The position numbers and the translations under genes were made by a program. This document shows, in pieces, positions 1-64,000 of a stretch of DNA of 64,000 nucleotides. Within the stretch, counting starts at the first letter, position 1; each line of letters opens with the position of its first letter. The notes below the pieces were generated by a model, which searched no databases, had not been told where the DNA came from, and saw only the letters and a list, made by a program, of their open reading frames with translations. The stretch covers positions 2,046,001 through 2,110,000 of the forward strand of contig CANUEZ040000206.1 in the NCBI GenBank assembly GCA_948099385.1. The letters are read 5' to 3'. The DNA comes from Fasciola hepatica (Eukaryota; Platyhelminthes; Trematoda; Plagiorchiida; Fasciolidae).

Positions 1-141
1 ATAGGAGTCGATCGGTGTGCGCGAAGCTGGTTCCTACCATTCAAATTTAAATCGAGTTTGGGAAGGGTGCTATATATGATGTAGTGTAGATGTTGAACAA
101 AGCGTTGATAGCCATCCCGGATAGCCTTGTGTTGTTAAGTT

Positions 142-150
142 GTTCGATTC
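142..150 (+). promoter_or_regulatory. Pol III B-box-like element, representative copy
   Basis: GTTCGATTC matches the core of the RNA polymerase III B box (GTTCRANNC) exactly. It is flanked by TTGT and ACAA, which can form a small T-arm-like hairpin. Partial A-box resemblance lies upstream at TAGCCATCCCGG (109-120) and TAGCCTTGTG (122-131), both missing the key central A. The element lies at anchor +52 to +60 in nearly every unit, about 50 bp before the hammerhead. Scattered units lose it, for example GTTCGTTTC near 32650 and GTTCCATTC near 50379 and 56021. Promoter function is inferred. Confidence 0.4.
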
Positions 151-198
151 ACAATGGTTCACCGGTTGTTGGAGTGCCCGTGGGGGCTCGGTCGATGT

Positions 199-248
199 GC
201 ACTGCTGATGAGTCGAGTCCCTTAGAGGATGAAACAGCTGTACAGTGC
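199..248 (+). ncRNA. Type I hammerhead ribozyme, consensus copy
   Basis: A self-cleaving RNA motif read directly from the sequence. Stem I 5' strand GCACTG at 199-204; core CTGATGA at 205-211; stem II region 212-230; core GAAA at 231-234, whose last A begins stem III; stem III palindrome ACAGCTGT at 234-241; A17 at 242; stem I 3' strand CAGTGC at 243-248, perfectly complementary to 199-204. Predicted cleavage is between 242 and 243 (GUA triplet). Beyond stem I, an internal loop (GAUGU against UUCCAUG) and a weak helix with GGUC match the layout of natural hammerheads, which use a stem I-loop II contact. Stem II is the unusual part: GUC pairs with GAU around a 13-nt loop, G10.1-U11.1 being a wobble. 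In every unit the motif sits at anchor ATG +109 to +158, shifted by one or two bases where small deletions occur. Family recognition is strong; catalytic activity is inferred. Confidence 0.85.
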
Positions 249-309
249 TTCCATGGATTTCAATGCTCAGTTGAGCGTTCAAGCTGCATGATCAATCATA
301 TTATACAAA

Positions 310-333
310 TCTAATCTGATCTAATCTAATCTC
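310..333 (+). repeat. (TCTAA)n pentamer tract, representative copy
   Basis: A short pentanucleotide tract follows the ribozyme in every unit and usually holds three to six TCTAA copies, often with one TCTGA. It ends at CTCGTACTACTAATC. Steps of five bases here explain most unit-length changes. The complement strand reads TTAGA. Units anchored at 10058, 10489, 11799, 13533 and 14395 have a different, degenerate form beginning AAGCAATT. Confidence 0.9.
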
Positions 334-2355
334 GTACTACTAATCATTTGCATGCATAGTAAGGAAGCTGTGTAGGTTGTTCATTTGGGAATGTGTTGGT
401 TGTACTTAGGCCCCTACAGAGAAGTCATCCATCATAGGAGTCGATCGGTGTGCGCGAAGCTGGTTCTTACCATTCAAATTTAGAGCGAGTTTGGGAACGG
501 TGCTATATCATGTAGTGTAGATGTTGAACAAAGCGTTGAGAGCCATCCCGGATAGCCTTGTGTTGTTAAGTTGTTCGATTCACAATGGTTCACCAGTTGT
601 TGGAGTGCCCGTGGTTGCTCGGTCGATGTGCACTGCTGATGAGTCGAGTCCCTTAGAGGATGAAACAGCTGTACAGTGCTTCCATGGATTTCAATGCTCA
701 GTTGAGCGTTCAAGCTGCATGATCAATCATATTATACAAATCTAATCTGATCTAATCTAATCTCGTACTAATAATCAATTGCATGCATAGTAAGGAAGCT
801 GTGTAGGTTGTTCATTTGGGAATGCGTTGGTTGTACTTAGGCCCCTACACAGAAGTCATCCATCATAGGAGTCGATCGGTGTGCGCGAAGCTGGTTCTTA
901 CCATTCAAATTTAGAGCGAGTTTGGGAACGGTGCTATATCATGTAGTGTAGATGTTGAACAAAGCGTTGATAGCCATCCCGGATAGCCTTGTGTTGTTAA
1001 GTTGTTCGATTCACAATGGTTCACCGGTTGTTGGAGTGCCCGTGGGGGCTCGGTCGATGTGCACTGCTGATGAGTCGAGTCCCTTAGAGGATGAAACAGC
1101 TGTACAGTGCTTCCATCCATTTCAATGCACAGTTGAGCGTTCAAGCTGCATGAACAATCATATTACACAAATCTAATCTAATCTAATCTAATCTCGTACT
1201 ACTAATCAATTGCATGCATAGTAAGGAAGCTGTGTAGGTTGTTCATTTGGGAATGTGTTGGTTGTACTTAGGCCCCTACAGAGAAGTCATCCATCATAGG
1301 AGTCGATCGGTGTGCGCGAAGCTGGTTCTTACCATTCAAATTTAGAGCGAGTTTGGGACCGGTGCTATATCATGTAGTGTAGATGTTGAACAAAGCGTTG
1401 AGAGCCATCCCGGATAGCCTTGTGTTGTTAAGTTGTTCGATTCACAATGGTTCACCGGTTGTTGGAGTGCCCGTGGGGGCTCGGTCGATGTGCACTGCTG
1501 ATGAGTCTAGTCCCTTAGAGGATGAAACAGCTGTACAGTGCTTCCATCCATTTCAATGCTCAGTTGAGCGTTCAAGCTGCATGATCAATCATATTATACA
1601 AATCTAATCTGATCTAATCTAATCTCGTACTACTAATCAATTGCATGCATAGTAAGGAAGCTGTGTAGGTTGTTCATTTGGGAATGCGTTGGTTGTACTT
1701 AGACCCCTACAGAGAAGTCATCCATCATAGGAGTCGATCGGTGTGCGCGAAGCTGGTTCTTACCATTCAAATTTAGAGCGAGTTTGGGAACGGTGCTATA
1801 TCATGTAGTGTAGATGTTGAACAAAGCGTTGATAGCCATCCCGGATAGCCTTGTGTTGTTAAGTTGTTCGATTCACAATGGTTCACCGGTTGTTGGAGTG
1901 CCCGTGGGGGCTCGGTCGATGTGCACTGCTGATGAGTCGAGTCCCTTAGAGGATGAAACAGCTGTACAGTGCTTCCATGGATTTCAATGCACAGTTGAGC
2001 GTTCAAGCTGCATGAACAATCATATTATACAAATCTAATCTAATCTAATCTAATCTCGTACTACTAATCAATTGCATGCATAGTAAGGAAGCTGTGTAGG
2101 TTGTTCATTTGGGAATGTGTTGGTTGTACTTAGGCCCCTACAGAGAAGTCATCCATCATAGGAGTGGATCGGTGTGCGCGAAGCTGGTTCTTACCATTCA
2201 AATTTGAAGCCAGTTTGGGAAGGGTGCTATGTATGATGTAGTGTAGATGTTGAACAAAGCGTTGATAGCCATCCCGGATAGCCTTGTGTTGTTAAGTTGT
2301 TCGATTCACAATGGTTCACCGGTTGTTGGAGTGCCCGTGGGGGCTCGGTCGATGT

Positions 2356-2405
2356 GCACTGCCGATGAGTCGAGTTCCTTAGAGGATGAAACAGCTGTTC
2401 AGTGC
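2356..2405 (+). ncRNA. Hammerhead variant: U4 to C core change, GUU triplet
   Basis: The core reads CCGATGA instead of CTGATGA (2362-2368), a change at conserved position U4 that should impair catalysis. The cleavage triplet is GUU, which hammerheads accept. Stem I (GCACTG with CAGTGC) is intact. The same pair of changes recurs in the units anchored at 3980, 4846 and 6581, so they form a lineage spread by unit duplication. Confidence 0.75.
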
Positions 2406-2533
2406 TTCCATGGACTTCAACGCTGAATTGGGCGTTCAAGCTGCATGATCAATCATATTATACAAATCTAATCTAATCTAATCTAATCTCGTACTACTAA
2501 TCAATTGCATGCATAGTAAGGAAGCTGTGTAGG

Positions 2534-2538
2534 TTTTT
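2534..2538 (+). terminator. T5 run, possible Pol III terminator
   Basis: The usual GTAGGTTGTTCATTT has become GTAGGTTTTTCATTT, creating five consecutive T on the plus strand. The consensus unit has no T4 run, so such point changes are the sites where a Pol III read-through transcript could stop. The same change occurs at 5138-5142 and 32452-32456. Function depends on Pol III transcription, which is inferred. Confidence 0.3.
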
Positions 2539-3062
2539 CATTTGGGAATGCGTTGGTTGTACTTAGGCCCCTACAGAGAAGTCATCCATCATAGGAGTCG
2601 ATCGGTGTGCGCGAAGCTGGTTCCTACCATTCAAATTTAAATCGAGTTTGGGAAGGGTGCTATATATGATGTAGTGTAGATGTTGAACAAAGCGTTGATA
2701 GCCATCCCGGATAGCCTTGTGTTGTTAAGTTGTTCGATTCACAATGGTTCACCGGTTGTTGGAGTGCCCGTGGGGGCTCGGTCGATGTGCACTGCTGATG
2801 AGTCGAGTCCCTTAGAGGATGAAACAGCTGTACAGTGCTTCCATCCATTTCAATGCTCAGTTGAGCGTTCAAGCTGCATGATCAATCATATTATACAAAT
2901 CTAATCTGATCTAATCTAATCTCGTACTACTAATCATTTGCATGCATAGTAAGGAAGCTGTGTAGGTTGTTCATTTGGGAATGTGTTGGTTGTACTTAGG
3001 CCCCTACAGAGAAGTCATCCATCATAGGAGTCGATCGGTGTGCGCGAAGCTGGTTCTTACCA

Positions 3063-3074
3063 TTCAAATTTGAA
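3063..3074. repeat. 12-bp perfect palindrome TTCAAATTTGAA
   Basis: This palindrome lies about 40 bp before the anchor. It is perfect where the following bases are GAAG and imperfect in units reading TTTAGAG, TTTAAAG or TTTGATG. The four forms are useful markers of unit lineage: TTTAGAG is concentrated between 0.5 and 27 kb, while the perfect form dominates from about 43 kb onward. No function is evident. Confidence 0.8.
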
Positions 3075-3650
3075 GCGAGTTTGGGAAGGGTGCTATATCA
3101 TGTAGTGTAGATGTTGAACAAAGCGTTGAGAGCCATCCCGGATAGCCTTGTGTTGTTAAGTTGTTCGATTCACAATGGTTCACCAGTTGTTGGAGTGCCC
3201 GTGGGGGCTCGGTCGATGTGCACTGCTGATGAGTCGAGTCCCTTAGAGGATGAAACAGCTGTACAGTGCTTCCATGGATTTCAATGCTCAGTTGAGCGTT
3301 CAAGCTGCATGATCAATCATATTATACAAATCTAATCTGATCTAATCTAATCTCGTACTACTAATCAATTGCATGCATAGTAAGGAAGCTGTGTAGGTTG
3401 TTCATTTGGGAATGCGTTGGTTGTACTTAGGCCCCTACAGAGAAGTCATCCATCATAGGAGTCGATCGGTGTGCGCGAAGCTGGTTCTTACCATTCAAAT
3501 TTAGAGCGAGTTTGGGAACGGTGCTATATCATGTAGTGTAGATGTTGAACAAAGCGTTGATAGCCATCCCGGATAGCCTTGTGTTGTTAAGTTGTTCGAT
3601 TCACAATGGTTCACCGGTTGTTGGAGTGCCCGTGGGGGCTCGGTCGATGT

Positions 3651-3700
3651 GCACTGCTGATGAGTCGAGTCCCTTAGAGGATGAAACAGCAGTACAGTGC
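3651..3700 (+). ncRNA. Hammerhead variant with broken stem III palindrome
   Basis: Stem III reads ACAGCAGT in place of ACAGCTGT, leaving the two outer pairs and the GUA triplet but breaking the self-complementary palindrome. Stem I and both core boxes are intact. The same change appears in the units anchored at 22198, 28703 and 29998, which are related by duplication. Confidence 0.7.
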
Positions 3701-4756
3701 TTCCTTGGACTTCAATGCTCAGTTGAGCGTTCAAGCTGCATGATCAATCATATTATACAAATCTAATCTAATCTAATCTAATCTAATCTCGTACTACTAA
3801 TCAATTGCATGCATAGTAAGGAAGCTGTGTAGGTTGTTCATTTGGGAATGTGTTGGTTGTACTTAGGCCCCTACAGAGAAGTCATCCATCATAGGAGTCG
3901 ATCGGTGTGCGCGAAGCTGGTTCTTACCATTCAAATTTGAAGCCAGTTTGGGAAGGGTGCTATGTATGATGTAGTGTAGATGTTGAACAAAGCGTTGATA
4001 GCCATCCCGGATAGCCTTGTGTTGTTAAGTTGTTCGATTCACAATGGTTCACCGGTTGTTGGAGTGCCCGTGGGGGCTCGGTCGATGTGCACTGCCGATG
4101 AGTCGAGTTCCTTAGAGGATGAAACAGCTGTTCAGTGCTTCCATGGACTTCAACGCTGAATTGGGCGTTCAAGCTGCATGATCAATCATATTATACAAAT
4201 CTAATCTAATCTAATCTAATCTCGTACTACTAATCAATTGCATGCATAGTAAGGAAGCTGTGTAGGTTGTTCATTTGGGAATGCGTTGGTTGTACTTAGG
4301 CCCCTACAGAGAAGTCATCCATCATAGGAGTCGATCGGTGTGCGCGAAGCTGGTTCCTACCATTAAAATTTAAATCGAGTTTGGGAAGGGTGCTATATAT
4401 GATGTAGTGTAGATGTTGAACAAAGCGTTGATAGCCATCCCGGATAGCCTTGTGCTGTTAAAGTGTTCGATTCACAATGGTTCACCGGTTGTTGGAGTGC
4501 CCGTGGGGGCTCGGTCGATGTGCACTGCTGATGAGTCGAGTCCCTTAGAGGATGAAACAGCTGTACAGTGCTTCCATGGATTTCAATGCTCAGTTGAGCG
4601 TTCAAGCTGCATGATCAATCATATTATACAAATCTAATCTAATCTAATCTAATCTCGTACTACTAATCAATTGCATGCAAAGTAAGGAAGCTGTGTAGGT
4701 TGTTCATTTGGGAATGCGTTGGTTGTACTTAGGCCCCTTCAGAGAAGTCATCCATC

Positions 4757-7700
4757 ATAGGAGTCGATCGGTGTGCGCGAAGCTGGTTCCTACCATTCAA
4801 ATTTAAATCGAGTTTGGGAAGGGTGCTATATATGATGTAGTGTAGATGTTGAACAAAACGTTGATAGCCATCCCGGATAGCCTTGTGTTGTTAAGTTGTT
4901 CGATTCACAATGGTTCACCGGTTGTTGGAGTGCCCGTGGGGGCTCGGTCGATATGCACTGCCGATGAGTCGAGTTCCTTAGAGGATGAAACAGCTGTTCA
5001 GTGCTTCCATGGACTTCAACGCTGAATTGGGCGTTCAAGCTGCATGATCAATCATATTATACAAATCTAATCTAATCTAATCTAATCTAATCTCGTACTA
5101 CTAATCAATTGCATGCATAGTAAGGAAGCTGTGTAGGTTTTTCATTTGGGAATGCGTTGGTTGTACTTAGGCCCCTACAGAAAAGTCATCCATCATAGGA
5201 GTCGATCGGTGTGCGCGAAGCTGGTTCCTACCATTAAAATTTAAATCGAGTTTGGGAAGGGTGCTATATATGATGTAGTGTAGATGTTGAACAAAGCGTT
5301 GATAGCCATCCCGGATAGCCTTGTGTTGTTAAGTTGTTCGATTCACAATGGTTCACCGGTTGTTGGAGTGCCCGTGGGGGCTCGGTCGATGTGCACTGCT
5401 GATGAGTCGAGTCCCTTAGAGGATGAAACAGCTGTACAGTGCTTCCATGGATTTCAATGCACAGTTGAGCGTTCAAGCTGCATGATCAATCATATTATAC
5501 AAATCTAATCTAATCTGATCTAATCTCGTACTACTAATCAACTGCATGCAAAGTAAGGAAGCTGTGTAGGTTGTTCATTTGGGAATGCGTTGGTTGTACT
5601 TAGGCCCCTTCAGAGAAGTCATCCATCATAGGAGTCGATCGGTGTGCGCGAAGCTGGTTCTTACCATTCAAATTTGAAGCCAGTTTGGGACGGGTGCAAT
5701 ATATGATGTAGTGTAGATGTTGAACAAAGCGTTGATGGCCATCCCGGATAGCCTTGTGTTGTTAAGTTGTTCGATTCACAATGGTTCACCGGTTGTTGGA
5801 GTGCCCGTGGGGGCTCGGTCGATGTGCACTGCTGATGAGTCGAGTCCCTTAGAGGATGAAACAGCTGTACAGTGCTTCCATGGATTTCAATGCTCAGTTG
5901 AGCGTTCAAGCTGCATGATCAATCATGTTATACAAATCTAATCTAATCTAATCTAATCTCGTACTACTAATCAATTGCATGCATAGTAAGGAAGCTGTGC
6001 AGGTTGTTCATTTAGGAATGCGTTGGTTGTACTCAGGCCCCTACAGAGATGTCATCCATCATAGGAGTCGATCGGTGTGCGCGAAGCTGGTTCTTACCAT
6101 TCCAATTTGAAGCGAGTTTGGGGAGGGTGCTATATCATGTAGTGTAGATGTTGAACAAAGCGTTGATAGCCATCCCGGATAGCCTTGTGTTGTTAAGTTG
6201 TTCGATTCACAATGGTTCACCGGTTGTTGGAGTGCCCGTGGGGGCTCGGTCGATGTGCACTGCTGATGAGTCGAGTCCCTTAGAGGATGAAACAGCTGTA
6301 CAGTGCTTCCATGGATTTCAATGCTCAGTTGAGCGTTCAAGCTGCATGATCAATCATATTATACAAATCTAATCTAATCTAATCTAATCTCGTACTACTA
6401 ATCAATTGCATGCAAAGTAAGGAAGCTGTGTAGGTTGTTCATTTGGGAATGCGTTGGTTGTACTTAGGCCCCTTCAGAGAAGTCATCCATCATAGGAGTC
6501 GATCGGTGTGCGCGAAGCTGGTTCCTACCATTCAAATTTAAATCGAGTTTGGGAAGGGTGCTATATATGATGTAGTGTAGATGTTGAACAAAGCGTTGAT
6601 AGCCATCCCGGATAGCCTTGTGTTGTTAAGTTGTTCGATTCACAATGGTTCACCGGTTGTTGGAGTGCCCGTGGGGGCTCGGTCGATATGCACTGCCGAT
6701 GAGTCGAGTTCCTTAGAGGATGAAACAGCTGTTCAGTGCTTCCATGGACTTCAACGCTGAATTGGGCGTTCAAGCTGCATGATCAATCATATTATACAAA
6801 TCTAATCTAATCTGATCTAATCTAATCTCGTACTACTAATCAATTGCATGCATAGTAAGGAAGCTGTGTAGGTTGTTCATTTGGGAATGTGTTGGTTGTA
6901 CTTAGGCCCCTACAGAGAAGTCATCCATCATAGGAGTCGATCGGTGTGCGCGAAGCTGGTTCCTACCATTAAAATTTAAATCGAGTTTGGGAAGGGTGCT
7001 ATATATGATGTAGTGTAGATGTTGAACAAAGCGTTGATAGCCATCCCGGATAGCCTTGTGTTGTTAAGTTGTTCGATTCACAATGGTTCACCGGTTGTTG
7101 GAGTGCCCGTGGGGGCTCGGTCGATGTGCACTGCTGATGAGTCGAGTCCCTTAGAGGATGAAACAGCTGTACAGTGCTTCCATCCATTTCAATGCTCAGT
7201 TGAGCGTTCAAGCTGCATGATCAATCATATTATACAAATCTAATCTAATCTGATCTAATCTCGTACTACTAATCAACTGCATGCAAAGTAAGGAAGCTGT
7301 GTAGGTTGTTCATTTGGGAATGCGTTGGTTGTACTTAGGCCACTTCAGAGAAGTCATCCATCATAGGAGTCGATCGGTGTGCGCGAAGCTGGTTCTTACC
7401 ATTCAAATTTGAAGCGAGTTTGGGAACGGTGCTATATCATGTAGTGTAGATGTTGAACAAAGCGTTGATGGCCATCCCGGATAGCCTTGTGTTGTTAAGT
7501 GGTTCGATTCACAATGGTTCACCGGTTGTTGGAGTGCCCGTGGGGGCTCGGTCGATGTGCACTGCTGATGAGTCGAGTCCCTTAGAGGATGAAACAGCTG
7601 TACAGTGCTTCCATGGATTTCAATGCTCAGTTGAGCGTTCAAGCTGCATGATCAATCATGTTATACAAATCTAATCTAATCTAATCTAATCTCGTACTAC

Positions 7701-8224
7701 TAATCAATTGCATGCATAGTAAGGAAGCTGTGCAGGTTGTTCATTTGGGAATGCGTTGGTTGTACTCAGGCCCCTACAGAGATGTCATCCATCATAGGAG
7801 TCGATCGGTGTGCGCGAAGCTGGTTCTTACCATTCCAATTTGAAGCGAGTTTGGGAAGGGTGCTATATCATGTAGTGTAGATGTTGAACAAAGCGTTGAT
7901 AGCCATCCCGGATAGCCTTGTGTTGTTAAGTTGTTCGATTCACAATGGTTCACCGGTTGTTGGAGTGCCCGTGGGGGCTCGGTCGATGTGCACTGCTGAT
8001 GAGTCGAGTCGCTTAGAGGATGAAACAGCTGTACAGTGCTTCCATGGATTTCAATGCTCAGTTGAGCGTTCAAGCTGCATGATCAATCATGTTATACAAA
8101 TTTAATCTAATCTGATCTAATCTCGTACTACTAATCAATTGCATGCATAGTAAGGAAGCTGTGTAGGTTGTTCATTTGTGAATGCGTTGGTTGTACTTAG
8201 GCCCCTACAGGGAAGTCATCCATC
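4757..8224 (+). repeat. Four-unit higher-order repeat, two copies
   Basis: Units at 4757-6491 (1,735 bp) recur in the same order at 6492-8224 (1,733 bp). Shared markers in order: the GATATGCACTGCCGATG family B unit, a TTTAAATCG family A unit, a unit whose GTTGATGGCC replaces GTTGATAGCC, and a unit beginning with ATTCCAATTTG. Small differences between copies include the 5' flank and pentamer counts. Confidence 0.85.
5138..5142 (+). terminator. T5 run, possible Pol III terminator
   Basis: Same G to T change as at 2534-2538, in the tail of the unit anchored at 4846. Confidence 0.28.
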
Positions 8225-8960
8225 ATAGGAGTGGATCGGTGTGCGCGAAGCTGGTTCTTACCTTTCAAATTTAAAGCGAGTTTGGGAAGGGTGCTATATC
8301 ATGTAGTGTAGATGTTGAACAAAGCGTTGAGAGCCATCCCGGATAGCCTTGTGTTGTTAAGTTGTTCAATTCACAATGGTTCACCGGTTGTTGGAGTGCC
8401 CGTGGGGGCTCGGTCGATGTGCACTGCTGATGAGTCGAGTCCCTTAGAGGATGAAACAGCTGTACAGTGCTTCCATGGATTTCAATGCTCAGTTGAGCGT
8501 TCAAGCTGCATGATCATTCATATTATACAAATCTAATCTAATCTAATCTAATCTCGTACTACTAATCAATTGCATGCAAAGTAAAGAAGCTGTGTAGGTT
8601 GTTCATTTGGGAATGCGTTGGTTGTACTTAGGCCCCTTCAGAGAAGTCATCCATCATAGGAGTCGATCGGTGTGCGCGAAGCTGGTTCTGACCATTCAAA
8701 TTTGAAGCGAGTTTGGGAACGGTGCTATATCATGTAGTGTAGATGTTGAACAAAGCGTTGATAGCCATCCCGGATAGCCTTGTGTTGTTAAGTTGTTCGA
8801 TTCACAATGTTTCACCGGTTGTTGGAGTGCCCGTGTGGGCTCGGTCGATGTGCACTGCTGATGAGTCGAGTCCCTTAGAGGATGAAACAGCTGTACAGTG
8901 CTTCCATGGATTTCAATGCTCAGTTGAGCGTTCAAGCTGCATGATCAATCATATTATACA

Positions 8961-9001
8961 AATCTAATCTTATCTAATCTAATCTAATCTAATCTAATCT
9001 C
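8961..9001 (+). repeat. Longest class of (TCTAA)n tract
   Basis: Eight pentamer steps, one reading TCTTA, make this unit 446 bp long. The same expanded tract with its TCTTA interruption recurs near 15918-15955 and 23720-23757, and the last two of these are related by the large segmental duplication. Confidence 0.85.
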
Positions 9002-9968
9002 GTACTACTAATCAATTGCATGCAAAGTAAGGAAGCTGTGTAGGTTGTTCATTTGGGAATGCGTTGGTTGTACTTAGGCCCCTACAGAGAAGGCATCCAT
9101 CATAGGAGTCGATCGGTGTGCGCGAAGCTGGTTCTTACCATTCAAATTTGAAGCGAGTTTGGGAAGGGTGCTATATCATGTAGTGTAGATGTTGAACAAA
9201 GCGTTGATAGCCATCCCGGATAGCCTTGTGTTGTTAAGTTGTTCGATTCACAATGGTTCACCGGTTGTTGGAGTGCCCGTGGGGGCTCGGTCGATGTGCA
9301 CTGCTGATGAGTCGAGTCCCTTAGAGGATGAAACAGCTGTACAGTGCTTCCATGGACTTCAACGCTGAATTGGGCGTTCAAGCTGGATGATCAATCATAT
9401 TATACAAATCTAATATCATCTAATCTAATCTCGTACTACCAATCAATTGCATGCATAGTAAGGAAGCTGTGTAGGTTGTTAATTTGGGAATGTGTTGGTT
9501 GTACTTAGGCCCCTACAGAGAAGTCATCCATCATAGGAGTCGATCGGTGTGCGCGAAGCTGGTTCTTAACATTCAAATTTGAAGCGAGTTTGGGAAGGGT
9601 ACAATATCATGTAGTGTAGATGTTGAACAAAGCGTTGATAGCCATCCCGGATAGCCTTGTGTTGTTAAGTTGTTCGATTCACAATGGTTCACCGGTTGTT
9701 GGAGTGCCCGTGGGGGCTCGGTCGATGTGCACTGCTGATGAGTCGAGTCCCTTAGATGATGAAACAGCTGTACAGTGCTTCCATCCATTTCAATGCTCAG
9801 TTGAGCGTTCAAGCTGCATGATCACTCATATTATACAAATCTAATCTAATCTAATCTAATCTAATCTCGTACTACTGATCAATTGCATGCAAAGTAAGGA
9901 AGCTGTGTAGGTTGTTCATTTGTGAATGCGTTGGTTGTACTTAGGCCCCTACAGAGAAGTCATCCATC

Positions 9969-44300: not shown

Positions 44301-44371
44301 TGTGTTGTTAAGTTGTTCGATTCACAATGGTTCACCGGTTGTTGGAGTGCCCGTGGGGGCTCGGTCGATGT

Positions 44372-48259: not shown

Positions 48260-48309
48260 GCAGTGCTGATGAGTCGAGTCCCTTAGAGGATGAAACAGCT
48301 GTACAGTGC
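48260..48309 (+). ncRNA. Hammerhead variant with stem I mismatch
   Basis: The 5' stem I strand reads GCAGTG, placing G opposite G at pair 1.3/2.3. Everything else, including CTGATGA, GAAA, ACAGCTGT, GUA and CAGTGC, is consensus. Confidence 0.7.
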
Positions 48310-51800: not shown

Positions 51801-52651
51801 AACGCTGAATTGGGCGTTCAAGCTGCATGATCAATCATATTATACAAACCTAATCTAATCTAATCTAATCTCGTACTACTAATCAATTGCACGCATAGTA
51901 AGGAAGCTGTGTAGGTTGTTCATTTGGGAATGCGTTGGTTGTACTTAGGCCCCTACAGAGAACTCATCCATCATAGGAGTCGATCGGTGTGCGCGAAGCT
52001 GGTTCTTACCATTCAAATTTGAAGCGAGTTTGGGAAGGGTGCTATATCATGTAGTGTAGATGTTGAACAAAGCGTTGAGAGCCATCCCGGATAGCCTTGT
52101 GTTGTTAAGTTGTTCGATTCACAATGGTTCAACGGTTGTTGGAGTGCCCGTGGGGGCTCGGTCGATGTGCACTGCTGATGAGTCGAGTCCCGTAGAGGAT
52201 GAAACAGCTGTACAGTACTTCCATGGACTTCAACGCTGAATTAGGCGTTCAAGCTGCATGATCAATCATATTATACAAATCTAATCTAATCTAATCTAAT
52301 CTCGTACTACTAATCAATTGCATGCATAGTAAGGAAGCTGTGTGGGTTGTTCATTTGGGAATGCGTTGGTTGTACTTAGGCCCCTACAGAGAAGTCATCC
52401 ATCACAGGAGGCGAACGGTGTGCGCGAAGCTGGTTCTTACCATTCAAATTTGAAGCGAGTTTGGGAAGGGTGCTATATGATGTAGTGTAGATGTTGAACA
52501 AAGCGTTGAGAGTCATCCCGGATAGCCTTGTGTTGTTCAGTTGTTCGATTCACAATGGTTCACCGGTTGTTGGAGTGCCCGTGGTTGCTCGGTCGATGTG
52601 CACTGCTGATGAGTCGAGTCCCTTAGAGGATGAAACAGCTGTACAGTGCTT
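48841..52651 (+). repeat. Duplicated block with 2601-bp offset
   Basis: The stretch from about 48841 to 50050 recurs at about 51442 to 52651. Shared private variants include TTTGTGAATG with ACAGTGTAGTC, GGGAAAAGTGC, TTGCACGCATAG, AGAGAACTCATCC, GTGTGGGTTG and GAGAGTCATCC with TTGTTCAGTTG. Similarity ends inside the third unit, which continues as family B in the left copy and family A in the right copy, marking a recombination point. Confidence 0.8.
50239..50757 (+). repeat. Single-unit duplication, partner at ~55882
   Basis: This stretch shares GCGCGTAGCTG, TTAGGTTGTTCCATTC, TCATACTACTAATC and the following AGGAGTGGATCGG with 55882-56400, an offset of 5,643 bp. Neighbouring units on both sides do not correspond, so it is a short non-adjacent transfer. 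Confidence 0.72.
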
Positions 52652-53224
52652 CCATGGATTTCAATGCTCAGTTGAGCGTTCAAGCTGCATGATCAATCAT
52701 GTTATACAAATCTAATCTAATCTAATCTAATCTAATCTAATCTCGTACTACTAATCAATTGCATGCATAGTAAGGAAGCTGTGTAGGTTGTTCATTTGGG
52801 AATGCGTTGGTTTTACTTAGGCCCCTACAGAGAAGTCATCCATCATAGGAGTGGATCGGTGTGCGCGAAGCTGGTTCTTACCATTCAAATTTGAAGCCAG
52901 TTTGGGAAGGGTGCTATATCATGTAGTGTAGATGTTGAACAAAGCGTTGATAGCCATCCCGGATAGCCTTGTGTTGTTAAGTTGTTCGATTCACAATGGT
53001 TCACCAGTTGTTGGAGTGCCCGTGGGGGCTCGGTCGATGTGCACTGCTGATGAGTCGAGTCCCTTAGAGGATGAAACAGCTGTAAAGTGCTTCCATGGAC
53101 TTCAACGCTGAATTGGGCGTTCAAGCTTCATGATCAATCATATTATACAAATCTAATCTGATCTATTCTAATCTAATCTAATCTCGTACTACTAATCAAT
53201 TGCATGCATAGTAAGGAAGCTGTG

Positions 53225-56200
53225 TAGGTTGTTCTTTTAGGAAAGCATTAGTTGTACTAAGCCCCTGGATAGTGGTCATCCATCATAGGAGTCGAACGGT
53301 GTGCGCGAAGCTGGTTCTTACCATCCAAATTTGAAGCGAGTTTGGGAAGGGTGCTATATGATGTAGTGTAGATGTTGAACAAAGCGTTGATAGCCATCCC
53401 GGATAGCCTTGTGTTGTTAAGTTGTTCGATTCACAATGGTTCACCAGTTGTTGGAGTGCCCGTGGGGGCTCGGTCGATGTGCACTGCTGATGAGTCGAGT
53501 CCCGTAGAGGATGAAACATCTGTAGAGTACTTCCATGGATTTCAACGCTGAATTGGGCGTTCAAGCTGCATGATCAATCATATAATACAAATTTAATCTA
53601 ATCTAATCTAATCTCGTACTACTAATCAATTGCATGCATAGTAAGGAAGCTGTGTAGGTTGTTCATTTGGGAATGCGTTGGTTGTACTTAGGCCCCTACA
53701 GAGAAGTCATCCATCACAGGAGTCGAACGGTGTGCGCGAAGCTGGTTCTTACCATTCAAATTTGAAGCGAGTTTGGGAAGGGCGCTATATCATGTAGTGT
53801 AGATGTTGAACAATGCGCTGATAGCCATCCCGGATAGCCTTGTGTTGTTAAGTTTTTCGATTCACAATGGTTCACCGGTTGTTGGAGTGCCCTGGTTGCT
53901 CGGTCGATGTGCACTGCTGATGAGTCGAGTCCCGTAGAGGATGAAACAGCTGTACAGTACTTCCATGGACTTCAACGCTGAATTGGGCGTTCAAGCTGCA
54001 TGATCAATCATATTATACAAATCTAATCTAATCTAATCTAATCTAATCTAATCTGGTACTATTAATCAATTGCATGCACAGTAAGGAAGCTGTGTAGGTT
54101 GTTCATTTAGGAATGCGTTAGTTGTACTAAGCCCCTACATAGTAGTCATCCATCATAGGAGTCGAACGGTGTGCGCGAAGCTGGTTCTTACCATTCAAAT
54201 TTGAAGCGAGTTTGGGAAGGGTGCTATATCATGTAGTGTAGATGTTGAACAAAGCGTTGAGAGCCATCCCGGATAGCCTTGTGTTGTTAAGTTGTTCGAT
54301 TCACAATGGTTCACCAGTTGTTGGAGTGCCCGTGGGGGCTCGGTCGATGTGCACTGCTGATGAGTCGAGTTCCGTAGAGGATGAAACAGCTGTACAGTAC
54401 TTCCATGGATTTCAACGCTGAATTGGGCGCTCAAGCTGCATGATCAATCATATTATACAAATCTAATCTTATCTAATCTAATCTAATCTCGTAATACTAA
54501 TCAATTGCATGCATAGTAAGGAAGCTGTGTAGGTTGTTCATTTGGGAATGCGTTGGTTGTACTTAGGCCCCTACAGAGAAGTCATCCATCATAGGAGTCG
54601 ATCGGTGTGCGCGTAGCTGGTTCTTACCATTCAAATTTGAAGCGAGTTTGGGAAGGGTGCTATATCATGTAGTGTAGATGTTGAACAAAGCGTTGATAGC
54701 CATCCCGGATAGCCTTGTGTTGTTAAGTTGTTCGATTCACAATGGTTCACCAGTTGTTGGAGTGCCCGTGGGGGCTCGGTCGATGTGCACTGCTGATGAG
54801 TCGAGTCCCTTGGGGGATGAAACAGCTGTACAGTACTTCCATGGACTTCAACGCTGAATTGGGCGTTCAAGCTGCATGATCAATCATATTATACAAATCT
54901 AATCTAATCTAATCTAATCTCGTAATACTAATCAATTGCATGCATAGTAAGGAAGATATGTAGGTTGTTCATTTAGGAATGCGTTAGTTGTACTAAGCCC
55001 CTACATAGTAGTCATCCATCATAGGAGTCGAGAGGTGTGCGCGAAGCTGGTTCTTACCATTCAAATTTGAAGCGAGTTTGGGAAGGGTGCTATATCATGT
55101 AGTGTGGATGTTGAACAAAGCGTTGATAGCCATCCCGGATAGCCTTGTGTTGTTAAGTTGTTCGATTCACAATGGTTCACCAGTTGTTGGAGTGCCCGTG
55201 GGGGCTCGGTCGATGTGCACTGCTGATGAGTCGAGTCCCTTGGGGGATGAAACAGCTGTACAATACTTCCATGGACTTCAACGCTGAATTGGGCTTTCAA
55301 GCTGCATGATCAATCATATTATACAAATCTAATCTAATCTAATCTAATCTCGTAATACTAATCAATTGCATGCATAGTAAGGAAGCTGTGTAGGTTGTTC
55401 ATTTAGGAATGCGTTAGTTGTACTAAGCCCCCACATAATAGTCATCCATCATAGGAGTCGAGAGGTGTGCGCGAAGCTGGTTGTTACCATTCAAATTTGA
55501 AGCGAGTTTGGGAAGGGTGCTATATCATGTAGTGTGGATGTTGAACAAAGCGTTGAGAGCCATCCCGGATAGCCTTGTGTTGTTAAGTTGTTCGATTCAC
55601 AATGGTTCACCAGTTGTTGGAGTGCCCGTGGGGGCTCGGTCGATGTGCACTGCTGATGAGTCGAGTCCCGTAGAGGATGAAACATCTGTAGAGTACTTCC
55701 ATGGACTTCAACGCTGAATTGGGCGTTCAAGCTGCATGATCAATCATATTATACAAATCTAATCTAATCTAATCTAATCTCGTAATACTAATCAATTGCA
55801 TGCATAGTAAGGAAGCTGTGTAGGTTGTTCATTTGTGAATGCGTTGGTTGTACTTAGGCCCCTACAGAGAAGTCATCCATCATAGGAGTCGATCGGTGTG
55901 CGCGTAGCTGGTTCTTACCATTCAAATTTGAAGCGAGTTTGGGAAGGGTGCTATATCATGTAGTGTAGATGTTGAACAAAGCGTTGAGAGCCATCCCGGA
56001 TAGCCTTGTGTTGTTAGGTTGTTCCATTCACAATGGTTCACCAGTTGTTGGAGTGCCCGTGGGGGCTCGGTCGATGTGCACTGCTGATGAGTCGAGTCCC
56101 GTAGAGGATGAAACAGCTGTTCAGTACTTCCATGGACTTCAACGCTGAATTGGGCGTTCAAGCTGCATGATCAATCATAATATACAAATCTAATCTAATC

Positions 56201-57610
56201 TAATCTAATCTCATACTACTAATCAATTGCATGCATAGTAAGGAAGCTGTGTAGGTTGTTCATTTGGGAATGCGTTGGTTGTACTTAGGCCCCTACAGAG
56301 AAGTCATCCATCATAGGAGTGGATCGGTGTGCGCGAAGCTGGTTCTTACCATTCAAATTTGAAGCGAGTTTGGGAAGGGTGCTATATCATGTAGTGTAGA
56401 TGTTGAACAAAGCGTTGATAGCCATCCCGGATAGCCTTGTGTTGTTAAGTTGTTCGATTCACAATGGTTCACGTGATGTTGGAGTGCCCGTGGTTGATCG
56501 GTCGATGTGCACTGCTGATGAGTCGAGTCCCTTAGAGGATGAAACAGCTGTACAGTACTTCCATGGACTTCAACGCTGAATTGGGCGTTCAAGCTGCATG
56601 ATCAATCATATAATACAAATTTAATCTAATCTAATCTAATCTCGTACTACTAATCAATTGCATGCATAGTAAGGAAGCTGTGTGGGTTGTTCATTTGGGA
56701 ATGCGTTGGTTGTACTTAGGCCCCTACAGAGAAGTCATCCATCACAGGAGTCGAACGGTTCGCGCGAAGCTGGTTCTTACCATTCAAATTTGAAGCGAGT
56801 TTGGGAAGGGCGCTATATCATGTAGTGTAGATGTTGAACAAAGCATTGATAGCCATCCCGGATAGCCTTGTGTTGTTAAGTTTTTCGATTCACAATGGTT
56901 CACCGGTTGTTGGAGTGCCCGTGGGGGCTCGGTCGATGTGCACTGCTGATGAGTCGAGTCCCGTAGTGGATGAAACAGCTGTACAGTACTTCCATGGACT
57001 TCAACGCTGAATTGGGCGTTCAAGCTGCATGATCAATCATATTATACAAATCTAATCTAATCTAATCTAATCTCGTACTACTAATCAATTGCATGCATAG
57101 TAAGGAAGCTGTGTAGGTTGTTCATTTGGGAATGCGTTGGTTGTACTTAGGCCCCTACAGAGAAGTCATCCATCATAGGAGTGGATCGGTGTGCGCGAAG
57201 CTGGTTCTTACCATTCAAATTTGAAGCGAGTTTGGGAAGGGTGCTATATCATGTAGTGTAGATGTTGAACAAAGCGTTGATAGCCATCCCGGATAGCCTT
57301 GTGTTGTTAAGTTGTTCGATTCACAATGGTTCACCAGTTGTTGGAGTGCCCGTGGGGCTCGGTCGATGTGCACTGCTGATGAGTCGAGTCCCGTAGACGA
57401 TGAAAAATCTGTAGAGTACTTCCATGGATTTCAACGCTGAATTGGGCGTTCAAGCTGCATGATCAATCATATTATACAAATCTTATCTAATCTTATCTAA
57501 TCTAATCTAATCTCGTACTACTAATCAATTGCATGCATAGTAAGGAAGCTGTGTAGGTTGTTCATTTAGGAATGCGTTAGTTGTTCTAAGCCCCTACATA
57601 GTATTCATCC
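53225..57610 (+). repeat. Cluster of units with the short-tail variant
   Basis: Several tails here read GTTAGTTGTACTAAGCCCC instead of GTTGGTTGTACTTAGGCCCC, one base shorter and often followed by ACATAGTAGTC or ACATAATAGTC. Copies begin near 53243, 54115, 54983, 55414 and 57572. The variant was not seen elsewhere in the window, so it is young and still confined to about 4.5 kb. Units in this cluster also carry ATCTGTAGAG and GGGGGATGAAAC changes in the hammerhead. Confidence 0.75.
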
Positions 57611-60395
57611 ATCATAGGAGTCGAACGGTGTGCGCGAAGCCTGGTTCTTACCATTCAAATTTGAAGCGAGTTTGGGAAGGGTGCTATATCATGTAGTGTA
57701 GATGTTGAACAAAGCGTTGATAGCCATCCCGGATAGCCTTGTGTTGTTAAGTTGTTCGATTCACAATGGTTCACCAGTTGTTGGAGTGCCCGTGGGGGCT
57801 CGGTCGATGTGCACTGCTGATGAGTCGAGTCCCGTAGACGATGAAAAATCTGTAGAGTACTTCCATGGATTTCAACGCTGAATTGGGCGTTCAAGCTGCA
57901 TGATCAATCATATTATACAAATCTAATCTAATCTAATCTAATCTCGTACTACTAATCAATTGCATGCATAGTAAGGAAGCTGTGTAGGTTGTTCATTTGG
58001 GAATGCGTTGGTTGTACTTAGGCCCCTACAGAGAAGTCATCCATCACATGAGGCGAACGGTGTGCGCGAAGCTGGTTCTTACCATTCAAATTTGAAGCGA
58101 GTTTGGGAAGGGTGCTATATCATGTAGTGTAGATGTTGAACAAAGCGTTGAGAGCCATCCCGGATAGCCTTGTGTTGTTAAGTTGTTCGATTCACAATGG
58201 TTCACCGGTTGTTGGAGTGCCCGTGGGGGCTCGGTCGATGTGCACTGCTGATGAGTCGAGTCCCTTAGAGGAAGAAACAGCTGTACAGTGCTTCCATGGA
58301 CTTCAATGCTCAGTTGAGCGTTCAAGCTGCATGATCAATCATATTATACAAATCTAATCTAATCTAATCTAATCTCGTACTACTAATCAATTGCATGCAT
58401 AGTAAGGAAGCTGTGTAGGTTGTTCATTTGGGAATGCGTTGGTTGTACTTAGGCCCCTACAGAGAAGTCATCCATCATAGGAGTCGATCGGTGTGCGCGA
58501 AGCTGGTTCTTACCATTCAAATTTGAAGCGAGTTTGGGAAGGGCGCTATATCATGTAGTGTAGATGTTGAACAATGCGCTGAGAGCCAACCCGGATAGCC
58601 CTGTGTTGTTAAGTTGTTCGATTCACAATGGTTCAACGGTTGTTGGAGTGCCCGTGGGGGCTCGGTCGATGTGCACTGCTGATGAGTCGAGTCCCTTAGA
58701 GGATGAAACAGCTGTACAGTACTTCCATGGACTTCAACGCTGAATTGGGCGTTCAAGCTGCATGATCAATCATATAATACAAATCTAATCTAATCTAATC
58801 TAATCTCGTAATACTAATCAATTGCATGCATAGTAAGGAATCTGTGTAGGTTGTTCATTTGTGAATGCGTTGGTTGTACTTAGGCCCCTACAGAGAAGTC
58901 ATCCATCATAGGAGTGGATCGGTGTGCGCGAAGCTGGTTCTTACCATTCAAATTTGAAGCGAGTTTGGGAAGGGTGCTATATCATGTAGTGTAGATGTTG
59001 AACAAAGCGTTGATAGCCATCCCGGATAGCCTTGTGTTGTTAAGTTGTTCGATTCACAATGGTTCACCAGTTGTTGGAGTGCCCGTGGGGGCTCGGTCGA
59101 TGTGCACTGCTGATGAGTCGAGTTCCGTAGAGGATGAAACAGCTGTACAGTGCTTCCATGGATTTCAACTCTGAATTGGGCGTTCAAGCTGCATGATCAA
59201 TCATATTAGACAAACCTAATCTAATCTAATCTAATCTCGTACTACTAATCAATTGCATGCATAGTAAGGAAGCTGTGTAGGTTGTTCATTTGGGAATGCG
59301 TTAGTTGTACTTAGGCCCCTACAGAGAAGTCATCCATCATAGGAGTCGAGAGGTGTGCGCGAAGCTGGTTCTTACCATTCAAATTTGAAGCGAGTTTGGG
59401 AAGGGTGCTATATCATGTAGTGTAGATGTTGAACAAAGCGTTGATAGCCATCCCGGATAGCCTTGTGTTGTTAAGTTGTTCGATTCACAATGGTTCACCA
59501 GTTGTTGGAGTGCCCGTGGGGCTCGGTCGATGTGCACTGCTGATGAGTCGAGTTCCGTAGAGGATGAAACAGCTGTACAGTACTTCCATGGATTTCAACT
59601 CTGAATTGGGCGTTCAAGCTGCATGATCAATCATATTAGACAAACCTAATCTAATCTAATCTAATCTCGTACTACTAATCAATTGCATGCATAGTAAGGA
59701 AGCTGTGTAGGTTGTTCATTTGGGAATGCGTTGGTTGTACTTAGGCCCCTACAGAGAAGTCATCCATCATAGGAGTCGATCGGTGTGCCCGTAGCTGGTT
59801 CTTACCATTCAAATTTGAAGCGAGTTTGGGAAGGGTGCTATATCATGTAGTGTAGATGTTGAACAAAGCGTTGATAGCCATCCCGGATAGCCTTGTGTTG
59901 TTAAGTTGTTCGATTCACAATGGTTCACCAGTTGTTGGAGTGCCCGTGGGGGCTCGGTCGATGTGCACTGCTGATGAGTCGAGTCCCTTAGAGGATGAAA
60001 CAGCTGTACAGTACTTCCATGGACTTCAACGCTGAATTGGGCTTTCAAGCTGCATGATCAATCATATTATACAAATATAATCTAATCTGATCTAATCTCG
60101 TAATACTAATCAATTGCATACATAGTAAGGAAGCTGTGTAGGTTGTTCATTTGGGAATGCGTTGGTTGTACTTAGGCCCCTACAGAGAAGTCATCCATCA
60201 TAGGAGTGGATCGGTGTGCGCGAAGCTGGTTCTTACCATTCAAATTTGAAGCGAGTTTGGGAAGGGTGCTATATCATGTAGTGTAGATGTTGAACAAAGC
60301 GTTGATAGCCATCCCGGATAGCCTTGTGTTGTTAAGTTGTTCGATTCACAATGGTTCACCGGTTGTTGGAGTGCCCGTGGGGGCTCGGTCGATGT

Positions 60396-60445
60396 GCACT
60401 GCTGATGCGTCGAGTCCCTTAGAGGATGAAACAGCTGTACAGTAC
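60396..60445 (+). ncRNA. Hammerhead variant: A9 to C core change
   Basis: The core reads CTGATGC (C at 60408). A9 is a conserved core base, so this copy is likely impaired. It also carries the weakened CAGTAC stem I strand. Confidence 0.7.
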
Positions 60446-61061
60446 TTCCATGGATTTCAACTCTGAATTGGGCGTTCAAGCTGCATGATCAATCATATTA
60501 TACAAACCTAATCTAATCTAATCTAATCTCGTACTACTAATCAATTGCGTGCATAGTAAGGAAGCTGTGTAGGTTGTTCATTTGGGAATGCGTTGGTTGT
60601 ACTTAGGCCCCTACAGAGAAGTCATCCATCACAGGAGTCGAACGGTGTGCGCGAAGCTGGTTCTTACCATTCAAATTTGAAGCGAGTTTGGGAAGGGTGC
60701 TATATCATGTAGTGTAGATGTTGAACAAAGCGTTGAGAGCCATCCCGGATAGCCTTGTGTTGTTAAGTTGTTCGATTCACAATGGTTCACCGGTTGTTGG
60801 AGTGCCCGTGGGGGCTCGGTCGATGTGCACTGCTGATGAGTCGAGTCCTGTAGAGGATGAAACAGCTGTACAGTACTTCCATGGACTTCAACGCTGAATT
60901 GGGCGTTCAAGCTGCATGATCAATCATATTATACAAATCTAAACTAATCTAATCTAATCTCGTACTACTAATCAATTGCATGCATAGTAAGGAAGCTGTG
61001 TAGGTTGTTCATTTGGGAATGCGTTGGTTGTACTTAGGCCCCTACAGAGAAGTCATCCATC

Positions 61062-61497
61062 ATAGGAGTCGATCGGTGTGCGCGAAGCTGGTTCTTACCA
61101 TTCAAATTTGAAGCGAGTTTGGGAAGGGTGCTATATCATGTAGTGTAGATGTTGAACAAAGCGTTGAGAGCCATCCCGGATAGCCTTGTGTTGTTAAGTT
61201 GTTCGATTCACAATGGTTCACCGGTTGTTGGAGTGCCCGTGGGGGCTCGGTCGATGTGCACTGCTGATGAGTCGAGTCCCGTAGAGGATGAAACAGCTGT
61301 ACAGTGCTTCCATGGACTTCAACGCTGAATTGGGCGTTCAAGCTGCATGATCAATCATGTTATACAAATCTAATCTAATCTGATCTAATCTAATCTCGTA
61401 CTACTAATCAATTGCATGCATAGTAAGGAAGCTGTGTAGGTTGTTCATTTGTGAATGCGTTGGTTGTACTTAGGCCCCTACAGAGAAGTCATCCATC
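61062..61497 (+). repeat. Representative family B satellite unit
   Basis: A 436-bp unit with the family B signature ACTTCAACGCTGAATTGGG after the ribozyme. The TGA in this signature closes the plus-strand frame that stays open in family A, and it changes the distal side of hammerhead stem I from GGAUUU to GGACUU. This unit has the CCCGTAGAGG variant of the ribozyme stem II loop, an intact GUA cleavage triplet and an intact CAGUGC stem I strand. Family B is scattered on the left (for example anchors 2247 and 3980) and is the large majority from about 43 kb to the right end. Confidence 0.93.
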
Positions 61498-63864
61498 ATA
61501 GGAGTCGATCAGTGTGCGCGAAGCTGGTTCTTACCATTCAAATTTGAAGCGAGTTTGGGAAGGGTGCTATATCATGTAGTGTAGATGTTGAACAAAGCGT
61601 TGATAGCCATCCCGGATAGCCTTGTGTTGTTAAGTTGTTCGATTCACAATGGTTCACCGGTTGTTGGAGTGCCCGTGGGGCTCGGTCGATGTGCACTGCT
61701 GATGAGTCGAGTCCCTTAGAGGATGAAACAGCTGTACAGTGCTTCCATGGACTTCAACGCTGAATTGGGCGTTCAAGCTGCATGATCAATCATATTATAC
61801 AAATCTAATCTAATCTAATCTAATCTCGTACTACTAATCAATTGCATGCATAGTAAGGAAGCTGTGTAGGTTGTTCATTTGGGAATGCGTTGGTTGTACT
61901 TAGGCCCCTACAGAGAAGTCATCCATCATAGGAGTGGATCGGTGTGCGCGAAGCTGGTTCTTACCATTCAAATTTGAAGCCAGTTTGGGAAGGGTGCTAT
62001 ATCATGTAGTGTAGATGATGAACAATGCGCTGAGAGCCATCCCGGATAGCCTTGTGTTGTTAAGTTGTTCGATTCACAATGGTTCACCGGTTGTTGGAGT
62101 GTCCGTGGGGGCTCGGTCAATGTGCACTGCTGATGAGTCGAGTCTCGTAGAGGATGAAACAGCTGTACAACGCTTCCATGGACTTCAACGCTGAATTGGG
62201 CCCTCAAACTGCATGATCAATCATATTATACAAATATAATCTAATCTGATCTAATCTCGTACTACTAATCAATTGCATGCATAGTAAGGAAGCTGTGTAG
62301 GTTGTTCATTTGTGAATGCGTTGGTTATACTTAGGCCCCTACAGAGAAGTCATCCATCACAGGAGTCGAACGGTGTGCGCGAAGCTGGTTCTTACCATTC
62401 AAATTTGAAGCGAGTTTGGGAGTTTTGCTATATATGATGTAGTGTAGATGTTGAACAAAGCGTTGATAGCCATCCCGGATAGCCTTGTGTTGTTAAGTTG
62501 TTCGATTCACAATGGTTCACCAGTTGTTGGAGTGCCCGTGGGGGCTCGGTCGATGTGCACTGCTGATGAGTCGAGTCCCGTAGAGGATGAAACAGCTGTA
62601 CAGTACTTCCATGGACTTCAACGCTGAATTGGGCGTTCAAGCTGCATGATCAATCATATAATACAAATCTAATCTAATCTAATCTAATCTAATCTTGTCT
62701 GGTACTACTAATCAATTGCATGCATAGTAAGGAAGCTGTGTAGGTTGTTCATTTGGGAATGCGTTGGTTGTACTTAGGCCCCTACAGAGAAGTCATCCAT
62801 CATAGGAGTCGATCGGTGTGCGCGAAGCTGGTTCTTACCATTCAAACTTGAAGCGAGTTTGGGAAGGGTGCTATATCATGTAGTGTAGATGTTGAACAAA
62901 GCGTTGAGAGCCATCCCGGATAGCCTTGTTTTGTTAAGTTGTTCGATTCACAATGGTTCACCGGTTGTTGGAGTGCCCGTGGGGGCTCGGTCGATGTGCA
63001 CTGCTGATGAGTCGAGTTCCGTAGAGGATGAAACAGCTGTACAGTGCTTCCATGGACTTCAACGCTGAATTGGGCGTTCAAGCTGCATGATCAATCATAT
63101 TATACAAATCTAATCTAATCTAATCTAATCTCGTAATACTAATCAATTGCATGCATAGTAAGGAAGCTGTGTAGGTTGTTCATTTGGGAATGCGTTGGTT
63201 GTACTTAGGCCCCTACAGAGAAGTGATCCATCATAAGAGTCGATCGGTGTGCGCGAAGCTGGTTCTTACCATTCAAATTTGAAGCGAGTTTGGGAAGGGT
63301 GCTATATCATGTAGTGTAGATGTTGAACAAAGCGTTGATAGCCATCCCGGATAGCCTTGTGTTGTTAAGTTGTTCGATTCACAATGGTTCACCAGTTGTT
63401 GGAGTGCCCGTGGGGGCTCGGTCGATGTGCACTGCTGATGAGTCGAGTCCCTTAGAGGATGAAACAGCTGTACAGTACTTCCATGGACTTCAACGCTGAA
63501 TTGGGCGTTCAAGCTGCACGATCAATCATATTATACAAATATAATCTAATCTAATCTGATCTAATCTCTTACTACTAATCAATTGCATGCATAGTAAGGA
63601 AGCTGTGTAGGTTGTTCATTTGGGAATGCGTTGGTTGTAATTAGGCCCCTAAAGAGAAGTCATCCATCATAGGAGTCGATCGGTGTGCGCGAAGCTGGTT
63701 CTTACCATTCAAATTTGAAGCGAGTTTGGGAAGGGTGCTATATCATGTAGTGTAGATGTTGAACAAAGCGTTGAGAGCCATCCCGGATAGCCTTGTGTTG
63801 TTAAGTTGTTCGATTCACAATGGTTCACCGGTTATTGGAGTGCCCGTGGGGGCTCGGTCGATGT

Positions 63865-63914
63865 GCACTGCTGATGAGTCGAGTCCCGTAGAAGATGAAA
63901 CAGCTGTACAGTAC
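63865..63914 (+). ncRNA. Last complete hammerhead in the window
   Basis: Both core boxes, ACAGCTGT and the GUA triplet are intact. Stem I is GCACTG against CAGTAC, with an A-C mismatch at pair 1.5/2.5, the usual state at the right end. The stem II loop is the CCCGTAGAAG variant. It shows that the motif continues to the window edge. Confidence 0.78.
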
Positions 63915-64000
63915 TTCCATGGACTTCAACGCTGAATTGGGCGTTCAAGTTGCATGATCAATCATATTATACAAATCTAATCTAATCTAATCTAATCTGG

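Follow-up and report, generated by a model that had tools for sequence, protein, structure and literature searches.

What does a hammerhead ribozyme repeated throughout a satellite array stand for: a source of self-cleaving RNA, or the remains of a mobile RNA element? The question is raised by a 64,000-nucleotide stretch of the Fasciola hepatica genome (contig CANUEZ040000206.1, positions 2,046,001 to 2,110,000, forward strand; hereafter the window), which is a single tandem array, satellite A. We class the window as a probable retrozyme-derived satellite with an interrupted hammerhead. In the explanation that we favor as probable, satellite A descends from the family of a dispersed 400-bp retrozyme, T400, its ribozyme cuts poorly or not at all, and T400 is predicted to be moved by Penelope-type machinery. 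Two open questions are thereby addressed, namely how a ribozyme RNA becomes a satellite and which enzyme moves retrozymes.

The hammerhead of satellite A is interrupted by a short duplication

Tandem-repeat analysis of the window gave a period of 431 and 147.8 copies, and 148 unit starts were counted. The preliminary description, made from the sequence alone, had reported a hammerhead built into the satellite units, and this was borne out: the parts occur in the right order in the 148 tandem units and the Rfam model RF00163 aligns end to end. The features of the array, with coordinates in the window, are as follows.

1..64000, plus strand: satellite A array, 148 head-to-tail units, mostly 431 bp (contig G000:C206)
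111..190, plus strand: tRNA-like head remnant of unit 1, aligned with the T400 head (33.1 bits to Rfam tRNA)
167..177, plus strand: decayed box B of unit 1, TGTTGGAGTGC; the T400 counterpart in the alignment is GGTTCGAGTCC
199..248, plus strand: type I hammerhead motif of unit 1 (RF00163, 24.5 bits, cut-off 34)
205..211, plus strand: core CTGATGA of unit 1, exact in 141 of 148 units
210..219, plus strand: 5-nt tandem duplication GAGTC GAGTC of unit 1, read directly; segment of duplicated length in 148 of 148 and 459 of 459 units
231..242, plus strand: GAAA, self-complementary stem III ACAGCTGT (234-241) and A17 (242) of unit 1
3' of 242, plus strand: predicted cleavage site of unit 1
243..248, plus strand: stem I 3' strand CAGTGC of unit 1, exact in 98 of 148 units
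307..333, plus strand: (AATCT)n-like tail stretch of unit 1, whose copy number differs among units
343..362, plus strand: counterpart in unit 1 of the T400 tail-to-leader junction, from alignments
630-679, 1061-1110 and 1923-1972, plus strand: further RF00163 matches in later units, from the same Rfam search

Among the 148 units, exact copies of the remaining parts number 146 for GCACTG, 147 for GAAA, 136 for ACAGCTGT and 140 for A17. All parts named in the preliminary description are exact at once in 83 units, in line with its estimate of about 80. The core together with six stem I pairs and two outer stem III pairs is preserved in 91 units, and the complete 50-nt string is exact in 65. CUGANGA, GAAA and NUH stand in proper order with stems I and III in the window units, and the core is intact in 140 of them and in 425 of 459 sampled A units (window plus 14 other stretches). 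Stem I, described earlier as perfectly complementary, is so in the consensus but not throughout, as 34 of the 148 units share G247A (unit consensus position), which disrupts one pair and has no compensating change.

Between CUGAU and GAAA lies a direct 5-nt duplication, CTGAT-GAGTC-GAGTC-CCTTAGAGGATGAAAC, which, judged by segment length, is present in all 459 A units. The base of stem II is a G.U pair (GGAT, not GGAC). Both features had been overlooked within what was called the stem II segment. In the catalytic register, which would set it directly beside A9 and G12, stem II of satellite A is GUC/GAU, with 3 bp including the G.U beside the core and a 13-nt loop (-4.4 kcal/mol). A rival register shifted by 5 nt, which is non-catalytic, pairs GUCC with GGAU at -7.7 kcal/mol and is 3.3 kcal/mol better. 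Stem II of L009, an older dispersed copy free of the insertion, reaches -9.9 kcal/mol. Because the displaced register is favored and low hammerhead activity is reported for an insertion after A6 (in passages of PMC3088659), little or no cleavage is predicted for the satellite A ribozyme. With such a motif, the array would more probably be the fossil of a mobile RNA element than a factory of RNA.

RF00163 aligns to the A motif in the catalytic register at 24.5 bits (E 0.0047), and the type I class and the kinship with retrozymes and schistosome SINE-like (short interspersed nuclear element-like) elements had been named correctly. The covariance-model match expected once loop II may grow is therefore present but below threshold (24.5 versus 34), and no match in the window reaches the gathering cut-off. 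A hammerhead on the minus strand was rejected, with 0 minus-strand unit seeds in the window and no Rfam match at cut-off on either strand. The 431-nt circle of the consensus unit folds no better than shuffled sequences (z +0.4, second run +0.6). No tRNA match was obtained at E<=10 by Rfam in positions 1-2000 of the window, and a box B regular expression matched once in the entire window. Conservation was not used as proof of function, since 20% of the windows of the unit vary less than the 50-nt motif, so that the motif does not rank with the most conserved ones (459 A units). Exact copies of the satellite hammerhead gave 0 matches in viral contigs.

A sister satellite with a mutated core is about five times as abundant

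The genome searched comprised 1.5 Gb in 656 contigs, with reversed sequences as controls. A flatworm spliced-leader pattern gave 0 matches in it, a negative that rules out little. A 31-mer of the satellite A hammerhead, allowing up to 3 mismatches, identified 15,753 sites (reversed control 0), which excludes chance as the origin of the motif. Twenty sampled 10-kb stretches contained family A (14), a sister family, satellite B (4), or a further satellite (2). Satellite B hammerhead sites, also counted at up to 3 mismatches, number 76,022 (reversed control 0), or ~5x those of A. The B unit is 423 bp long and is ~72% identical to A by BLAST and 78.4% in the multiple alignment. Its consensus core, CTCATGA...CAAAC, has G5 and G12 changed and a stem I mismatch, and lacks the duplication. 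Rfam detected no hammerhead at E<=5 in three of four B stretches, functional columns have changed as fast as the rest (4/37 versus 43/351, P 1.0), and the circular fold of the consensus unit resembles that of shuffled sequences (z -0.5). A mutated core at such a copy number indicates that amplification had no need for an intact ribozyme.

Sites on contigs C191 and C194 include B copies with G5 alone or G12 alone changed, besides copies with both, and these single-change forms point to gene conversion or repeated loss. A duplication-free A motif was not found with fewer than 3 mismatches among the first 100 sites listed of 674.

T400 is a dispersed family with a tRNA-like head and a hammerhead

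A search with the canonical hammerhead pattern yielded five dispersed loci (control 0). Only L009, at 36.7 bits, exceeds the Rfam type I cut-off; L010 scores 26.2 bits, and for L011 and L012 the type I model gave nothing at E up to 1. The kinship of L009 with the satellite extends across most of the unit, and a search with L009 identified T400. Among the satellites, T400 and the old copies, the L009 hammerhead alone reaches the Rfam cut-off.

The T400 unit is 400 bp long, with 47.8% guanine-cytosine (GC) content, and is made up of a leader, a tRNA-like head, the hammerhead and a tail. The head scores 33.1 bits in 12 matches, and 15 matches are at or above the Rfam tRNA cut-off of 29. T400 sites number 32,601 at up to 2 mismatches (control 0) and occur in single, tandem and head-to-head forms. 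Its hammerhead has a self-complementary stem III and a U10.1-U11.1 mismatch, which according to passages of PMC3088659 gives more activity than any other mispair at that position. The 400-nt circle folds better than shuffled sequences (z -5.2; one unit, 60 dinucleotide shuffles), and box B is intact in the T400 array on C142 and decayed in A and B. T400 thus has the short tandem repeats below 50% GC with a type I hammerhead that characterize retrozymes. Judged by its sequence, it is a young dispersed family of retrozyme or SMalpha-like type, with a tRNA-like head and a hammerhead, and would be a likelier source of ribozyme RNA than the window array. ARAGORN predicted no tRNA genes in the seven loci given to it, which did not include T400 loci.

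Satellites and dispersed copies share one unit organization

In alignment, T400 is 85.6% identical to A and 79.8% to B. A, B, T400 and the older copies have the common order leader, tRNA-like head, hammerhead and tail, and their unit junctions correspond. Among the dispersed copies is L091, a head-to-head pair with an identical 12 nt on both flanks (by eye). One of its arms carries the satellite's exact 50-nt duplicated hammerhead and the other is free of the duplication. In an unrooted tree, the duplicated arm groups with A and B (support 92), and A groups with B (support 98). The tree with L091 implies that the duplication may predate the split of A and B, with B losing it later. An origin on the A branch, first suggested by L009 and B, was not retained, as the tree with L091 is compatible with either order.

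T400 insertions are head to head, with short target duplications and one-sided tails

Neighboring opposite-strand T400 sites within 1 kb are all in minus-then-plus order (10/10, with 0 plus-then-minus, among 100 exact sites listed). All 18 loci read have two arms joined 5' to 5', and most of these loci were chosen because prior searches showed T400 on both strands. Two T400 arrays change orientation once, midway: C8:10423463-10430902, with 8 minus followed by 11 plus exact sites, and C10:1048921-1054016, with 11 minus followed by 3 plus. An insertion with this composition of 8 minus and 11 plus lies between flanks that match over 12 nt.

Flank words of >=8 nt are shared in 9 of 13 insertions (12 head-to-head and 1 plus-only array) versus 6 of 156 cross-locus comparisons, and words of >=10 nt in 6 of 13 versus 1 of 156. 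In these counts, L068, incomplete at its edge, was entered with 7 nt and L091 with 8 of its 12 nt; left out were L086 and L092 (TA repeats), L067 and L069 (incomplete sequence), and L009 and L010 (no candidate). The nine target duplications have A or T at 75 of 100 positions.

The outer ends of T400 fall at unit positions 40-73 and 91-106, beyond the cleavage site at 400/1. Of 15 pairs, 14 have exactly one longer-ended arm (permutation P 0.00012; the exception is L010), with end classes fixed after the ends had been inspected and L067, L068 and L069 unusable. The stretch at positions 74-106 has A or C at 25 of 33 positions. Since the arms cross the cleavage site, a cleaved linear monomer is excluded as template, which leaves a circle or an uncut multimer as candidates. 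The use of two templates per insertion is not claimed generally, because the arms of L091 differ, yet those of the C8 array have a private base in common at unit position 12. Junction microhomology was not used either, as overlaps of 1-5 nt in 15 of 18 loci are partly expected by chance.

Penelope-like machinery may have moved T400

Penelope elements are described, in passages of PMC3846280, with an inverted head-to-head end copy, duplications of 8-10 bp and a tail of ~31 bp on one inverted end. Sections of PMC11167929 report that the anole Penelope protein acts on both strands, cutting and extending each, and prefers AT-rich targets, that it starts internally in an AC-rich stem loop, and that the tail is the stretch between two start sites. 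T400 resembles Penelope-like elements as described in these two sources in its head-to-head arms, target duplication, one-sided tail and tandem units, and in the internal reverse transcriptase start proposed for it. Unlike them, T400 has no reverse transcriptase reading frame and would use the machinery in trans. Hammerhead cleavage is dispensable for Penelope insertion in vitro, again from the sections of PMC11167929, which fits the spread of the interrupted ribozyme of L091. No report of a Penelope-type footprint in retrozymes was found in the literature searched, which is no proof of absence.

Candidate machinery exists in the genome. A GIY-YIG search gave 90 genome matches; open frames of 798-869 aa contain 11 of these, and neighbors lie in tandem ~2.75 kb apart and also in head-to-head order. 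Two short peptides of the GIY-YIG element had no Pfam family and no homologue. An inverted repeat of ~95% identity at L013:2247-2443 was read by Rfam as a weak microRNA. Words of this repeat recur between the GIY-YIG frames in L093 (by eye), and the repeat therefore probably represents a head-to-head copy of this element.

In the mechanism that we propose, T400 would be transcribed, its hammerhead would cut multimers, and the 400-nt RNA would circularize. A Penelope-type reverse transcriptase would begin internally in this RNA, 40-73 or 91-106 nt beyond the cleavage site, from each end of a staggered cut in the target, and would run round or along the template. Such an insertion would be expected to show tandem units and head-to-head arms, a tail on only one of the arms, and a short duplication of the target. 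One such array may then have grown to megabases by satellite turnover at the DNA level, losing promoter and RNA fold, and L091 would be a dispersed copy already bearing the satellite's duplicated ribozyme. A bolder reading, which we would put at somewhat below even chances, is that a circular hammerhead RNA hitchhikes on Penelope machinery, the reverse transcriptase entering the circle at two preferred sites from both ends of a staggered cut and rolling round it. Head-to-head tandem arrays made in one step would then be the seeds of megabase satellites that can do without the ribozyme.

Weighing the alternatives

Several observations count against descent of satellite A from a Penelope-moved T400 family with a failing ribozyme. 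On the A branch, functional columns changed in 0 of 37 cases versus 33 of 351 others (Fisher P 0.058), which could mean constraint, and variation in the A core is 1.1% versus a unit average of 2.8% (459 units). The in-context pairing probability of stem I is 0.56 in T400 and 0.01 in A; it is also 0.01 in the canonical L009, so this measure does not separate good from bad ribozymes. The T400 hammerhead itself, with 20 matches at 28.8-29.9 bits, is in every case below the cut-off of 34, and for this reason the Rfam score alone is not decisive for A. If the duplication predates the split of A and B, B must have lost it. No target duplication was seen at the old copies L009 and L010, nor at L085 and the C10 array, and the post hoc end classes behind the tail count belong here as well. 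No Rfam hammerhead was detected in the 700 bases of the GIY-YIG element read (L093), and a link between the T400 tail and this element, a 10-nt match only (E 0.83), was not used.

The alternative that survives best is that satellite A is transcribed and self-cleaves, through a stem II of 3 bp with a 13-nt loop or as a dimer paired by the self-complementary stem III, and that the resulting 431-nt RNAs circularize. This is unlikely, although it can draw on catalytic residues that are all intact in the consensus, on the 140 of 148 and 425 of 459 intact cores, on the unchanged functional columns of the A branch and the Rfam alignment in catalytic register, and on salamander retrozymes with weak stems and dimeric action, described in part of PMC7229834. 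Its catalytic register is 3.3 kcal/mol worse than the competitor, the insertion after A6 is associated with low activity (same passages of PMC3088659), and both a promoter-like box B and a circular-fold signal are lacking. Cleavage of transcripts into 431-nt monomers, which the preliminary description had expected, is left unsupported by the better non-catalytic register, the missing circular-fold signal, the decayed box B and the abundance of core-mutated B; self-cleavage of window transcripts would be an unlikely event.

Less probable still is that T400 is a tRNA-derived SINE mobilized by a long interspersed nuclear element (LINE), from a linear 400-nt RNA starting at ~97 and ending at ~96, with tandem and head-to-head forms made by later recombination. 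Several arms of about one unit, from ~90-99 to 91-99 (e.g., L066 and L087), and the tRNA-like head would suit such an element, but the head would lie ~190 nt inside this RNA and not at its 5' end, and recombined single SINEs would not be expected to give head-to-head order at every one of 18 loci, a tail on one side only in 14 of 15 pairs, or target duplications that enclose whole pairs.

The reverse direction, an older satellite whose pieces were spread as dispersed copies by reverse transcription, is very improbable: A and B together do outnumber T400 sites, but the dispersed copies have intact heads and include in L009 the sole hammerhead above cut-off, while in A and B the heads have decayed and the cores are interrupted or mutated, and the two form a derived clade (unrooted tree).

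Comparison with known systems

Newt and salamander satellite 2, which is described in PMC7229834, is transcribed and cleaves mainly as dimers. Like it, satellite A has a hammerhead in a tandem satellite with a weak self-complementary stem III; unlike it, the core is interrupted in A and mutated in B.

Metazoan non-LTR (long terminal repeat) retrozymes, as presented in the sections of PMC7229834 drawn on here, have a type I hammerhead in tandem repeats of 150-450 bp with <50% GC, as found here, and they share with T400 a self-paired circle and target duplications of >4 bp. In the same sections (Cervera and de la Pena 2020), Penelope elements are named as strong candidate mobilizers of retrozymes and are present in the genomes of retrozyme hosts, for which the GIY-YIG frames here are a candidate counterpart. 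By its sequence, T400 is similar to a metazoan retrozyme in the features tested, except for the Rfam score cut-off. Relative to what those sections describe, satellite A differs in its 5-nt core insertion and missing circular-fold signal, and B in its mutated core; T400 differs in its tRNA-like head and in its one-tailed head-to-head footprint.

By description (parts of PMC2770079 and PMC8490949), the schistosome SMalpha/SJalpha and W-elements are likewise tRNA-derived with a type I hammerhead, and have dispersed and tandem satellite forms, some with altered cores. SMalpha is 335 bp long and tRNA-Gln-like in these accounts, unlike the units of 400-431 bp here.

This single genome holds a series made up of an old canonical copy, a young dispersed family with a Penelope-type footprint, the dispersed copy L091 with the ribozyme variant of the satellite, and two satellites of megabase scale in which the ribozyme is interrupted or mutated. 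The presence of a hammerhead in a satellite does not by itself prove that self-cleaving RNA is made, and the mobilizer question becomes testable through counts of insertion ends.

Surroundings of the array

On contig G000:C206, the B arrays have one edge between positions 1121000 and 1130001 and another between 2830500 and 2840001. A further satellite with units of 311-317 bp, which had no BLAST match to A or B, was sampled in L018 (500001-510000) and L023 (2940001-2950000) and lies beyond the B arrays, flanking the A/B block on both sides. Far from the arrays, L090 (G000:C120:14916201-14917200) is an isolated 256-bp piece of satellite A that is 95% identical and carries the duplicated hammerhead.

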